Positions 20,776 to 24,844 of a stretch of 64,000 bases of DNA are shown piece after piece (positions within the stretch are counted from its first letter, which is position 1; every line of letters starts with the position of its first letter). This DNA comes from Limosilactobacillus caccae (lineage in GTDB: Bacteria > Bacillota > Bacilli > Lactobacillales > Lactobacillaceae). The stretch covers positions 186,001 to 250,000 of the forward strand of contig NZ_FTOY01000011.1 of assembly GCF_900156885.1 (NCBI RefSeq), in the 5' to 3' direction. Under the pieces are notes generated by a model. It was given only the letters and a program-made list of their open reading frames with translations. It searched no databases and was not told the DNA's origin. A program made the translations under genes and the position numbers.

Positions 20776-21148
20776 GGGGATGTTTTTTGGATTCGACAGG
20801 TATAGTTCGAGTTTCAACTGCGTTTCGAAGGTTGCGTCTTCGTAAAAACGCTCAGTTTTAAATTATAACTGCAAACAATAATTCAAACTCATACGCATAC
20901 GCTGCCTAACAAGTAGCGCGCGTAGATCTGCACCGGGTTCGTCCATGATGCGGCTGTAGGTTTTATATGTTAGTGGACTACGCTTATTACTCCCGTTTGA
21001 AGTACTAAGAAGAGATTAATCAAGCTAGCTAGTCAAGTTGGCCCTGATCAACGGCGTTTTGGTTAGCGAATCTTAAATAGTTGAGATATGAACGTAGAGG
21101 TTGGAATGGCGATATGCTTGGACACGGGTTCGACTCCCGTCATCTCCA
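20776..21148 (+). ncRNA. ssrA: Transfer-messenger RNA (tmRNA)
   Basis: 5' end GGGGATG pairs with 3' CATCTCC to form the tRNA-like acceptor stem (one G-U). The conserved GGATTCGACAGG follows the 5' arm, and the T-arm GGGTTCGACTCCC lies near the 3' end; CCA is not encoded. The tag frame begins at GCA 20871 and stops at TAA 20907-20909, encoding ANNNSNSYAYAA. The YAYAA end differs from the more usual YALAA or LAA-type ends. Works with SmpB (1376) to rescue stalled ribosomes. Confidence 0.97.
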
Positions 21149-21164
21149 TTTTGTAGGTTTTTAG

Positions 21165-21678: not shown

Positions 21679-22302
21679 CTAAAACTGATTATCGACCACC
21701 CGGTTGTAATAAATCAGGTGCTGGTCAAGGGTGTGGGGATCGACGACGATCTTGGAAACACTACAGTTAGTTGGTTCGAGGATTTCTAGTCCGTGAGTGT
21801 CAACTGCATTAGCGGCAAATGAACGGACGGTAAAGCCGTGGGTGACGACAACAACCCGCTCGTCAGGATGGCTGCTGACGACGTCCTCCGTAAATGAGCG
21901 GACGCGTTGCTCTACCTGGGCAAACGTCTCGCCGTGAGCCGTGGTGGCATAGTCCGGCCGCACATCCTTGATTAGCGGGTAGAAGAGGTCCGGGTACTTG
22001 GCCATCAGCTCGTTGTTTTGCTGCCCGTCCCAGTCACCGTAGGAAATCTCCAGGAGCCGTTGGTCAACCGTGACGGGTAAGTGGAGTTGGTCATTGATGA
22101 TTGCTGCCGTTTGCCGTGTCCGGTGAAGAGGGGAAACGTACAGGTTTGTTAGCTTTCCTGGATTAAAATATTTTGCAAGCCGCATTGCCTGTTCTTTTCC
22201 GGTCGCTGATAGGTGAGTCCGGTGGTCGTCGATTGTTCCCTGCTTTAAGCCAGCGGCATTAGCGGCAGTTTGCCCGTGGCGGATGATATAAAATTCTGTC
22301 AT
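21679..22302 (-). CDS. Histidine phosphatase family protein
   Basis: 207 residues, phosphoglycerate-mutase-like fold. The catalytic motif IIRHGQTAAN is at residues 6-15; the second Arg motif is YVSPLHRTRQTA; the acid LLEISYGDWDGQ and the second His VVVVTHGFTV are present. Such proteins are usually broad phosphatases rather than true mutases. SD AAGGAG. Divergent from serCA. Confidence 0.92.
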   Translation of the reverse strand: MTEFYIIRHGQTAANAAGLKQGTIDDHRTHLSATGKEQAMRLAKYFNPGKLTNLYVSPLHRTRQTAAIINDQLHLPVTVDQRLLEISYGDWDGQQNNELMAKYPDLFYPLIKDVRPDYATTAHGETFAQVEQRVRSFTEDVVSSHPDERVVVVTHGFTVRSFAANAVDTHGLEILEPTNCSVSKIVVDPHTLDQHLIYYNRVVDNQF

Positions 22303-22339: not shown

Positions 22340-22368
22340 TTGACTAAAGATGAAAAATAGATTAGAGT
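22340..22368 (+). promoter_or_regulatory. Promoter of serCA leader
   Basis: TTGACT (22340-22345), 17-bp spacer, TAGAGT (22363-22368); start expected near 22375. Confidence 0.65.
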
Positions 22369-22410
22369 TTAATTAACGATTTTGAAGCCAACAGATAGGA
22401 GGACACCATC

Positions 22411-22467
22411 ATGCAATTAGGACATACTGTAATCGCATTAACATCCTCCCAGTCTTCTAGTAATTAG
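22411..22467 (+). CDS. Serine-rich leader peptide of serCA (18 aa)
   Basis: Short ORF MQLGHTVIALTSSQSSSN ending in TAG. A full AGGAGG SD at 22397-22402 lies 8 nt before the ATG. Five of the last seven residues are Ser, using TCC, TCC, TCT, TCT and AGT, so both main serine tRNA classes would be sampled. The ORF lies between a promoter and an intrinsic terminator upstream of serine biosynthesis genes. Its role is inferred to be sensing seryl-tRNA through ribosome stalling, not making a functional peptide. Confidence 0.8.
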   Translation: MQLGHTVIALTSSQSSSN

Positions 22468-22566
22468 AAGGCTGGTCTTTTGGCGCGGCCTTCACTTATG
22501 AGTGTGGGGGCCGATTAACGGCGATAAATATCATACGCCCCCACTTTCACCGGTGGGGGCTTTTTT
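22449..22566 (+). promoter_or_regulatory. Ribosome-mediated transcription attenuator of serCA
   Basis: Five mutually exclusive helices: 1:2 CCAGTCTTCTA (22449-22459) with TAGAAGGCTGG (22465-22475); 2:3 GAAGGCTG (22467-22474) with CGGCCTTC (22486-22493); 3:4 CGGCCTTCAC (22486-22495) with GTGGGGGCCG (22504-22513); 4:5 GTGGGGGC (22504-22511) with GCCCCCAC (22537-22544); 5:6 terminator GCCCCCAC with GTGGGGGC (22553-22560) plus TTTTTT. Arm 1 includes serine codons. Predicted logic: ribosomes stalled at Ser block 1:2, so 2:3 then 4:5 form and transcription continues; when serine is plentiful 1:2, 3:4 and 5:6 form and it stops. Confidence 0.78.
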
Positions 22567-22590
22567 AATACTATTTTGGAGGAAAGACAG

Positions 22591-23664
22591 ATGACAGGAT
22601 ATAACTTTGCTGCAGGGCCGGCAGTCTTACCACGGCCAGTGTTAAAGAAAGTTCAAGCAGAACTATTAAATTATCATGATACCCAGATGAGTATTCTGGA
22701 GATCTCTCACCGGTCAGCACTGTTCGATGAGATTTATACGGCAGCTAAGGAACGGGTCCTTAAGTTATTAAAATTAGCTAGTGATGATTATGACGTCTTG
22801 TTCCTGCAGGGCGGGGGAACTCTCCAGTTTGCGATGGTCCCGCTCAACCTGGCAGTTAACCATCACCGCGTGGCCTATGCCAATACCGGGCACTGGTCAA
22901 CACGGGCAATTGCGGAAGCAAAGAGAATTCCCGGACTGCAGGTCGATGAGGTAACCAATGCTGGCCCAGACTTTACCACAATTCCGGAAGTACCTGCTTT
23001 AGCGGCTGGAAAGTACGACTACTTGCATATCACGACCAACAACACAATTCACGGGACCGCTTATCAGGATTTGCCCGTGACTGATGTTCCCTTGGTTGGT
23101 GACCTATCGTCAAACTTCCTGGGGCAAGTCTATGACTTTACTAAGTTTGACCTGCTGTATGCTGGTGCCCAGAAGAACTTGGCCCCGGCCGGGTTGACAA
23201 TTGTGGTAGTCAAACGCGAACTGTTAAATAAAGAGAGTAACTTGCCAAGCATGCTCAACTATCCGGCCCTCGCAAAGAAAAATTCAACCTTGAACACGCC
23301 GCCAGTATTTCAGATTTACGTTGCCAACCTTGTTTTGCAGTGGTTAGACGAGCAAGGTGGGGTTGCCGCGGCAGAAGAACAAAACAAGCGGAAATCAGCG
23401 CTGATCTATGACTTCCTCGATAACTCAAAGTTATTTACCAATAAGGTGGTTCCAGATGCCCGGTCACTGACGAACATTCCGTTTACCACGGGGAAGGAAG
23501 AACTGGATCAACAATTCATTGCTGCCGCTAATCAGGCGGGCTTGCTCAACCTCAAGGGTCACCGTTCAGTTGGCGGGATGCGGGCAAGCCTCTATAACGC
23601 GATGCCATACGCGGGCGCGGTTGCGTTGCGCGATTTCATGGCAAAATTTGAACAGGAACACTAA
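22591..23664 (+). CDS. serC: Phosphoserine aminotransferase
   Basis: 357-residue PLP enzyme; second step of serine synthesis (3-phosphohydroxypyruvate to phosphoserine). Begins MTGYNFAAGPAVLP; the PLP-lysine motif is YAGAQKNLAPAG (Lys near residue 196); the C-terminal HRSVGGMRASLYNAMP is intact. The start at 22591 has SD GGAGGAAAG. It lies 25 bp after the attenuator T-run and 13 bp before serA. No serB homologue is seen in the window; a HAD or histidine phosphatase elsewhere could serve. Confidence 0.96.
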   Translation: MTGYNFAAGPAVLPRPVLKKVQAELLNYHDTQMSILEISHRSALFDEIYTAAKERVLKLLKLASDDYDVLFLQGGGTLQFAMVPLNLAVNHHRVAYANTGHWSTRAIAEAKRIPGLQVDEVTNAGPDFTTIPEVPALAAGKYDYLHITTNNTIHGTAYQDLPVTDVPLVGDLSSNFLGQVYDFTKFDLLYAGAQKNLAPAGLTIVVVKRELLNKESNLPSMLNYPALAKKNSTLNTPPVFQIYVANLVLQWLDEQGGVAAAEEQNKRKSALIYDFLDNSKLFTNKVVPDARSLTNIPFTTGKEELDQQFIAAANQAGLLNLKGHRSVGGMRASLYNAMPYAGAVALRDFMAKFEQEH

Positions 23665-23677
23665 GGGAGGAATTACG

Positions 23678-24844
23678 ATGTATCAAGTAAAGACCTACAA
23701 TGCAATCGCCCAACGCGGGTTAGACGAACTGACAGCTGACTACCAGGTGAATCAAGAAGGCGCGGCAGTCGATGCCTACATGATTCGGAGTGTCGACCTT
23801 CATGACCACCACTTTCCCGACTCGTTAAAAGTAATTGCCCGCTGTGGGGCTGGCTTTAATAATATTCCCCTGCATGTAGCGTCAGAAAAGGGGATCGCGG
23901 TATTCAACACTCCCGGTGGTAATGCCAACGCGGTCAAAGAACTGATTATTGCAATGATGATTGCCACTAATCGAAACCTGATTGGAGCGGCTGAATGGAG
24001 TGCCCAAGCCGCACCCGGTGCCGACATTACCCTGCGGACGGAAAAGCAAAAGACCCAGTTTAAGGGGCAAGAAATCCTCGGTAAGCGGCTTGCGGTAATT
24101 GGGCTGGGGCATGTCGGCTCGCTGGTTGCCAATGCCGCGGTTGACTTGGGGATGGACGTCATTGGTTATGACCCATACTTGTCAGTAGAGTCGGCATGGA
24201 ACCTTTCCCGGGATATTAAACGGGCCGGGACAATTGCCGAGGCAATCAAAGGAGCAGATTTTGTCACCGTCCACGTTCCCAAAAATGAAGAAACGACCGG
24301 CCTAATCGGTGTGCCCGAGTTTAATGAAATGAAGCCAACAGCGGTCCTGTTAAACTACTCTCGCTTAGGCATTGTCGATAATGCGGCGGCGGTTAAAGTA
24401 TTGGCAAACGACCAGTTACGCCACTACTGCACCGATTTTAGTGACGAGCAGATTTTGGACAATGACAAGGTAACGATCACACCCCATATCGGTGGGTCAA
24501 CCGGGGAAGCGGAAGCCAACTGTTCACTGCTGGCGGCTCGTGAAATTATGGAGTTCCTGGAAAACGGGAATACGGTCAACGCCGTCAACTTGCCAAATGT
24601 CAAGATGCCTTTTGCTAGTCCCTACCGGATTACCGTCATCCACCGTAACATCCCTAACATGCTGGGGCAGATAACAACGGTGCTTGCTGGCGCAGGGTTG
24701 AACATTGAAAACCTGGTTAACCGGGCGAAGGATGACTATGCTTATACAATGGTCGATGTCGACCGCCTTGACCAAGCGGTAGTTGCGGCGCTTGAAGAGA
24801 TTGACGCAGTGAGCCGGGTGCGGCTGATCGTGAAAGAAGGTTAG
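23678..24844 (+). CDS. serA: D-3-phosphoglycerate dehydrogenase
   Basis: 388 residues; first step of serine synthesis. Catalytic substrate domain at both ends of a Rossmann NAD domain (VIGLGHVGSLVANAA near residue 137, with D in VIGYDPY). Active-site features: the ARCGAGFNNI segment, the FVTVHVPKNEETTGL block, and PHIGGSTGEAEANC with the catalytic His. A C-terminal ACT domain (about residues 315-388, YRITVIHRNIPNMLGQI) suggests serine feedback. SD GGGAGG. Cotranscribed with serC. Confidence 0.96.
   Translation: MYQVKTYNAIAQRGLDELTADYQVNQEGAAVDAYMIRSVDLHDHHFPDSLKVIARCGAGFNNIPLHVASEKGIAVFNTPGGNANAVKELIIAMMIATNRNLIGAAEWSAQAAPGADITLRTEKQKTQFKGQEILGKRLAVIGLGHVGSLVANAAVDLGMDVIGYDPYLSVESAWNLSRDIKRAGTIAEAIKGADFVTVHVPKNEETTGLIGVPEFNEMKPTAVLLNYSRLGIVDNAAAVKVLANDQLRHYCTDFSDEQILDNDKVTITPHIGGSTGEAEANCSLLAAREIMEFLENGNTVNAVNLPNVKMPFASPYRITVIHRNIPNMLGQITTVLAGAGLNIENLVNRAKDDYAYTMVDVDRLDQAVVAALEEIDAVSRVRLIVKEG

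Follow-up and report, generated by a model that had tools for sequence, protein, structure and literature searches.

What controls the serine-synthesis genes serC and serA at this locus, and does the short Ser-rich reading frame in front of serC take part in that control? In the window, by which we mean the whole 64-kb stretch of DNA analysed, the + strand carries a leader of ~170 nt (22397-22566), followed by serC and then by a serA-like gene. The original prediction described a leader with a Shine-Dalgarno sequence (SD), an 18-codon ORF with five late Ser residues and six arms forming five helices, the last of them an 8-bp terminator with six T. Direct reading of the sequence confirmed the SD and the ORF, and the coordinates of the arms and of the terminator proved correct when each pair was checked. 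The features are as follows.

22340..22368, + strand: candidate sigma-70 promoter (TTGACT, 17-nt spacer, TAGAGT; 9/12 matches)
22397..22403, + strand: leader SD AGGAGGA (arm 0), read from the sequence, complementary to the TCC TCC codons
22411..22467, + strand: leader ORF MQLGHTVIALTSSQSSSN, 18 codons, from ATG at 22411 to the stop TAG at 22465-22467
22444..22461, + strand: Ser control codons TCC TCC (CAG) TCT TCT AGT, from the sequence and from the leaders of relatives
22449..22458, + strand: arm 1, pairs with arm 2; overlaps the Ser codons
22466..22475, + strand: arm 2, pairs with arm 1 or arm 3; overlaps the stop codon
22486..22495, + strand: arm 3, pairs with arm 2 or arm 4
22504..22512, + strand: arm 4, pairs with arm 3 or arm 5
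22537..22544, + strand: arm 5, pairs with arm 4 (antiterminator) or arm 6 (terminator)
22553..22566, + strand: intrinsic terminator, arm 6 (22553-22560) and a run of six T (22561-22566)
22591..23664, + strand: serC, phosphoserine transaminase (TIGR01364, 444 bits, cut-off 443.6)
23678..24844, + strand: serA-like gene for phosphoglycerate dehydrogenase (234 bits to its best model, TIGR01327, whose cut-off is 454)

The SD-preceded leader ORF is predicted to be translated into a peptide with a cluster of the end-product amino acid, ending in TSSQSSSN with Ser at positions 12, 13, 15, 16 and 17 (five in the last seven residues), and it precedes genes for that same amino acid, serC and serA. The claim that the Ser codons lie in arm 1 and that arm 2 lies at the leader stop is borne out by the coordinates, arm 2 beginning one base into the stop codon. 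Base-by-base checking gave helix 1:2 as 22449-22458 with 22466-22475 (10 bp, one T.G), helix 2:3 as 22467-22474 with 22486-22493 (8 bp, one T.G), helix 3:4 as 22487-22495 with 22504-22512 (9 bp, two wobbles), helix 4:5 as 22504-22511 with 22537-22544 (8 bp) and the terminator helix 5:6 as 22537-22544 with 22553-22560 (8 bp); the terminator and antiterminator helices are mutually exclusive. The fold of 22397-22570 has an energy of -67.2 kcal/mol (z = -5.9), and none of 200 shuffles was equally stable. The candidate promoter is weak when taken alone, with about one such match expected by chance in the region.

A serA homologue adjoins serC in all 35 of the longer (4-kb) loci. A histidine phosphatase gene (21679-22302, - strand) is divergent from the leader and scores best in NCBIfam against the phosphoserine phosphatase PspA, with 114 bits where the cut-off is 350. 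In 26 of the 35 loci, the 4-kb stretch that contains serC also has a homologue of this histidine phosphatase, and no SerB over its cut-off was found in this genome; the divergent gene may be the missing phosphoserine phosphatase, a candidate for the last step of serine synthesis. The tmRNA gene (20776-21151, + strand) lies ~1.2 kb upstream of the leader.

The leader is very probably a ribosome-mediated transcription attenuator that senses seryl-tRNA charging and controls serC-serA. The sequence itself shows the ORF with its Ser codons, the full set of coevolving helices, the link to serC and, in silico, a folding switch; from these we infer actual termination, ribosome stalling, a response to serine and a role for pairing of the SD. 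In the proposed mechanism, a ribosome would load on the leader SD soon after the SD is transcribed. With seryl-tRNA plentiful, it would get to the stop codon and mask arm 2, upon which arms 3 and 4 would pair and leave arm 5 free to form the 5:6 terminator, and transcription would end near 22566. With seryl-tRNA short, the ribosome would stall on the Ser codons and mask arm 1; arms 2 and 3 would then pair, and arm 4, left free, would capture arm 5 and allow the polymerase to continue into serC-serA. If no ribosome loaded, helices 1:2, 3:4 and 5:6 would form and transcription would likewise end.

Recurrence in relatives had been set as a check on the original prediction, and indeed the leader ORF, its Ser codons and the order of the helices recur across 13 Lactobacillaceae genera, tied to serC. 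SerC matches (E <= 0.001) were obtained in 11 of 50 genomes of the genus Limosilactobacillus and in 173 of 396 genomes of the family Lactobacillaceae, and upstream DNA was scanned at 117 distinct serC loci from 20 Lactobacillaceae genera, a set that does not take in all 173 SerC genomes. A Ser-rich leader precedes serC in 82 of the 117 loci and in 13 of the 20 genera, L035, L057, L077, L100 and L185 being counted as leaders after inspection or a model match. L014, which is on the same contig as L001 (Limosilactobacillus kribbianus), was dropped, and L002 (a Lactobacillus MAG, SerC 74%) and L003, both leaderless, are not among the 117. Four further loci in two genera have a shorter, divergent Ser-rich leader before serC (L106, L107, L102 and L103; SSSTRPLM, SSSPVGTHC). 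Both of these genera have a divergent tRNA-Leu(CAG) neighbour; in a third genus, which has this neighbour as well, serC is not preceded by a Ser-rich ORF of this kind.

The leader is dispensable, because 31 of the 117 serC loci are without it; all 31 were inspected, and L109 and L111, where the crude motif matched by chance, were counted as leaderless. Five genera have no leader at any locus scanned and one genus has it in one of nine. Genera g30, g33 and g3 have serC without the leader, and the nine of their 19 loci that were compared with Rfam (L112-L114, L109-L110, L082, L083, L085 and L086) gave no element at cut-off. In six other families of the order, a Ser-rich ORF was found upstream of serC at none of 38 loci. 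The leader can also be followed through its first hairpin, for which a covariance model (R1) was derived from 60 leaders out of the 74 available at that stage. It matches 98 of the 396 family genomes and, in the order-wide set, 13 of 395 genomes, every one of them from Lactobacillaceae. Of the 99 family matches, 97 share the strand of serC and precede it by 152-727 nt, which ties the leader to this gene. Of the two other matches, one is in a genome with a two-piece SerC match, its place unlisted, and the last is weak (E = 0.0046) and probably due to chance. The analyses below rest on 77 leaders for the structure tests and on 76 of them (the 77 less L027) for codon usage and the SD.

The motif TCN TCN nnn TCn served to collect the leaders, so that Ser at its three positions (76, 76 and 75 of 76 leaders) is largely built in; leaders found otherwise depart from the motif (SWAS in L027, SFSWS in L077 and SSFGS in L100). 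At position -3, outside the collecting motif, Ser is found in 45 of 76 leaders and Val in 27. The codon for this Ser is TCN in 30 leaders and AGY in 15, in different genera and also within some, and since the two codon families lie two substitutions apart, this points to selection on the serine residue itself. Subgroup g4 (peptides SSKSTR) has only three Ser left. The middle residue of the motif, x, is W, R, K, L or Q (TGG, CGG, AAG, TTG and CAG), its codon always ending in a G that pairs in arm 1. At alignment position 16:39 a T.G pair is found in 47 and a T-A pair in 9 of 56 distinct rows; a Ser-codon T wobbles with a G of arm 2, and the same G can form a Watson-Crick pair with a C of arm 3.

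The motif SS-x-S-(S/T) recurs across genera, and it could be taken for an arrest sequence, with the nascent peptide itself halting the ribosome, perhaps with free serine as the ligand, and not a shortage of seryl-tRNA. We consider this very unlikely, as the residue at x varies in step with the base pairs that arm 1 forms, the N-terminal part of the peptide is not shared between genera and the stop codon falls anywhere from 4 to 11 codons after x; in addition, high serine would raise expression, which is the wrong sign for biosynthesis.

The compensatory change called for by the original prediction was found by covariation in helix 1:2, and coevolution of the arms was seen by arm swaps in all five helices. 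In helix 1:2, 41 cells were changed on both sides against 11.2 in shuffles, and the covariation score lay beyond all 500 shuffles and all slid versions. Compensatory change in this helix was above shuffles on three of five measures; on the other two, double-change pairs and further pair types, it was not. A single alignment of the other helices was precluded by sequence divergence and variable loops, hence two tests were applied to the 77 leaders, one using dinucleotide shuffles of the spacer and the other comparing the arms of each leader with arms swapped between genera. The terminator is present in all 77 leaders taken and the expected arm order is kept in 70; against spacer shuffles, p<0.05 was reached for helix 4:5 in 63 and for helix 2:3 in 55 of 77 leaders. 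Own arms paired better than the mean of the swaps in 77/77 leaders for 1:2 (fixed windows), 67/77 for 2:3, 69/77 for 3:4 and 67/75 for 4:5 (arms set independently of the tested pair in these three), as well as in 77/77 for 5:6, a result that is partly built in because the hairpin itself was used to define arms 5 and 6. Among the control pairs, own arms exceeded swapped arms in 36/77 for 1:4, 24/77 for 2:5 and 48/77 for 3:6, the last weakly positive (p = 0.03). By this comparison, each of the five helices is better paired between arms of one genome than between arms from different genera.

The switch between these helices was followed by folding the RNA up to the start of arm 6, at equilibrium, with its 5' part masked by a ribosome. 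Helix 4:5 was favoured in 73 of 77 leaders with the ribosomal A site on the second Ser codon, and still in 33 of 77 with the A site on the stop codon. It was higher at Ser than at stop in 52 leaders, lower in one and equal within 0.05 in 24; for the window leader the calculation gave 0.82 with the ribosome at Ser and 0.06 at stop. For the 24 leaders in which stall and stop do not differ, the cause may be either that equilibrium folding falls short or that the switch is truly weak. The control codons lie in arm 1, and a ribosome positioned on the stop codon is predicted to cover at least 82% of arm 2 in 76 of the 77 leaders, 56% in L065 and the whole of it in the window leader.

A structured leader with a terminator and alternative helices would also suit a regulator protein or a small molecule that binds the folded RNA, in the manner of a riboswitch or a protein-controlled terminator, with the ORF being incidental. 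That reading is highly improbable, given that a Ser-rich ORF with SD and start codon accompanies the helices, that Ser is favoured outside the collecting motif too and that arm 2 is placed where a ribosome at the stop codon would mask it; moreover, no Rfam family is matched at gathering score, and the loops and spacers vary widely.

The statement that Firmicutes mostly use T-boxes for amino-acid genes fits this genome, where T-boxes are indeed common (24 matches, 10 of them over the curated cut-off). One match directly precedes serS (L143:1269-1458, 71 bits, below the Rfam cut-off of 93), and its specifier appears to be TCC, the codon that dominates in the serC leaders. A T-box binds tRNA directly. 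Like the serC leader, the serS T-box is expected to read tRNA-Ser charging and to control a terminator, but it is a conserved RNA fold of ~190 nt that binds the tRNA itself and needs no leader peptide. With a T-box at serS and a leader peptide at serCA, the seryl-tRNA charge signal is apparently read by two mechanisms in one genome. On the window serC leader there was no match to RF00230 (T-box) and none at gathering score to the Rfam leader families (His, Thr, Trp, Leu and serC), the best amino-acid leader match being Thr_leader, which scored 17.7 bits where the cut-off is 55. Rfam was also run on the DNA preceding serC at 20 loci of the family, of which 17 are leaderless, two carry the divergent leader and one (L100) has a leader; four tRNAs were the sole matches at gathering score, with no T-box among them. 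At 20 loci taken from the 38 in other families, nothing reached gathering score. A T-box reading tRNA-Ser, the usual device in lactobacilli and one that this genome has at serS, is scarcely credible for serC, being already refuted by the absence of a T-box match there; the leader is also too short.

The Ser-rich ORF alone is not rare and is weak evidence. In 60 simulated 64-kb windows, SD-preceded short ORFs with at least five Ser in seven codons occurred at 0.32 per window, those with five of any one residue in seven codons at about one per window, and several unrelated residue-rich SD-preceded ORFs are also present in the real window. The significance of the leader therefore comes from the ORF in combination with the helices and the recurrence in relatives, not from the ORF alone. 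That a Ser-rich ORF, of which ~0.3 are expected per random window, simply came to lie next to an ordinary terminator has almost no probability and was rejected on comparative evidence, unremarkable as the ORF alone is, since the leader is found in 13 genera with coevolving arms and is absent from the 38 serC loci of six other families.

The Ser codons of the attenuator can also pair with the SD of the leader itself. In the window, the pairing site is 22398-22403 with 22444-22449, and the SD pairs with the Ser-codon region with P = 0.79; P>0.5 was obtained in 61 of 76 leaders. Own partners exceeded swapped ones in 50 of 76 leaders (p = 8e-6), with three genera contributing little and one reversed. 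The codons at positions -2 and -1 are TCC in 125, TCA in 17 and TCT in 10 of 152 cases; the 457 Ser codons of 26 serC genes include 87 TCC, 89 TCA and 72 TCT, TCC being 87 of 309 TCN codons. SD pairing exceeded the mean of random recodings in 70 of 76 leaders (p = 9e-12), the recodings being kept within TCN, as no other Ser codons fit the collecting motif. The same isoacceptor is expected to read both TCC and TCT, yet TCC dominates over TCT in the leaders (125 against 10), unlike in serC genes, so that tRNA choice alone does not explain the bias; a rare-codon effect may lie behind the preference. Pairing of the Ser codons with the SD of serC was weaker, the leader SD being the stronger partner in 56 of 76 leaders, and may be a secondary effect.

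The leader SD and start codon are transcribed some 30 to 45 nt ahead of the Ser codons, and a first ribosome can therefore load. Pairing of TCC TCC with the SD could subsequently close the leader to a second ribosome, leaving one decision per transcript. We put forward, tentatively and with somewhat more doubt than belief, that this is a serine-specific Lactobacillaceae attenuator in which the Ser codons have three jobs, namely sensing seryl-tRNA, forming arm 1 and locking their own SD after one ribosome. The SD pairing is less certain than the attenuator itself, and the lock is its proposed function. The E. coli trp leader also hides its own ribosome-binding site.

Taken together, these data suggest that, in a family where T-boxes abound, serine synthesis is widely controlled by classical ribosome-mediated attenuation. 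The presence in one genome of serS with a T-box and of serCA with a leader peptide provides a clean pair for asking why one charge signal has two readers. The pairing of Ser codons with the SD is a specific, testable proposal on how attenuators limit re-initiation, and the compact leader could be used as a serine-responsive switch.

Among known systems, the enteric his attenuator (hisL of E. coli and Salmonella), which is drawn as six mutually exclusive arms, is similar in its design. In both, the leader encodes a peptide containing a stretch of the regulated amino acid, the control codons fall within arm 1 and arm 2 lies close to the stop codon; the terminating set is 1:2/3:4/5:6 and the antiterminating set 2:3/4:5. 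The additional 3:4/4:5 switch that the original prediction noted over the simple four-arm model is thus present, but it is not new in kind, being that of the enteric six-arm design. Unlike enteric his, the serC leader uses serine, is found in Lactobacillaceae, matches no Rfam leader family at gathering score and has Ser codons that also pair with the leader SD. The Rfam serC leader RF00517, described from another bacterial class, the alphaproteobacteria, likewise lies upstream of serC, and it was not among the Rfam matches of the window leader up to E = 10.

In 2010, leader-peptide systems outside Proteobacteria and Actinobacteria were, with the exception of ermC, unknown to the authors of PMC2965389, who described a His leader in Bacilli (hisS paralogues) with ribosome-mediated attenuation predicted by comparison. 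His leaders were later given for the B. cereus group, Erysipelotrichales and Peptostreptococcaceae, with T-boxes for the his genes of Lactobacillales (PMC9413887). The serC leader resembles these Firmicutes His leaders in that ribosome-mediated attenuation is deduced from comparison, and differs in amino acid, genes and lineages. For branched-chain genes, PMC6123439 cites ribosome-mediated control in S. aureus and L. monocytogenes, along with predictions for L. lactis; this too is Gram-positive ribosome-mediated attenuation, whereas the serC leader uses serine and Lactobacillaceae are not named in the part of that paper drawn on here. Other uORF attenuators are described in PMC8632094, and a T-box survey that includes L. 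plantarum (PMC2494555) leaves serC and serA unmentioned in its main text. The original prediction knew of no serine attenuator described in lactobacilli, and in the open-licence PMC papers searched we found neither a serine attenuator nor a lactobacillar serC leader peptide. Leader-peptide attenuators are, on the evidence of these papers, already known in Firmicutes for His and branched-chain amino acids, predicted or tested. We would therefore file the serC leader with the known ribosome-mediated attenuators, with serine as the sensed amino acid being what is new here.
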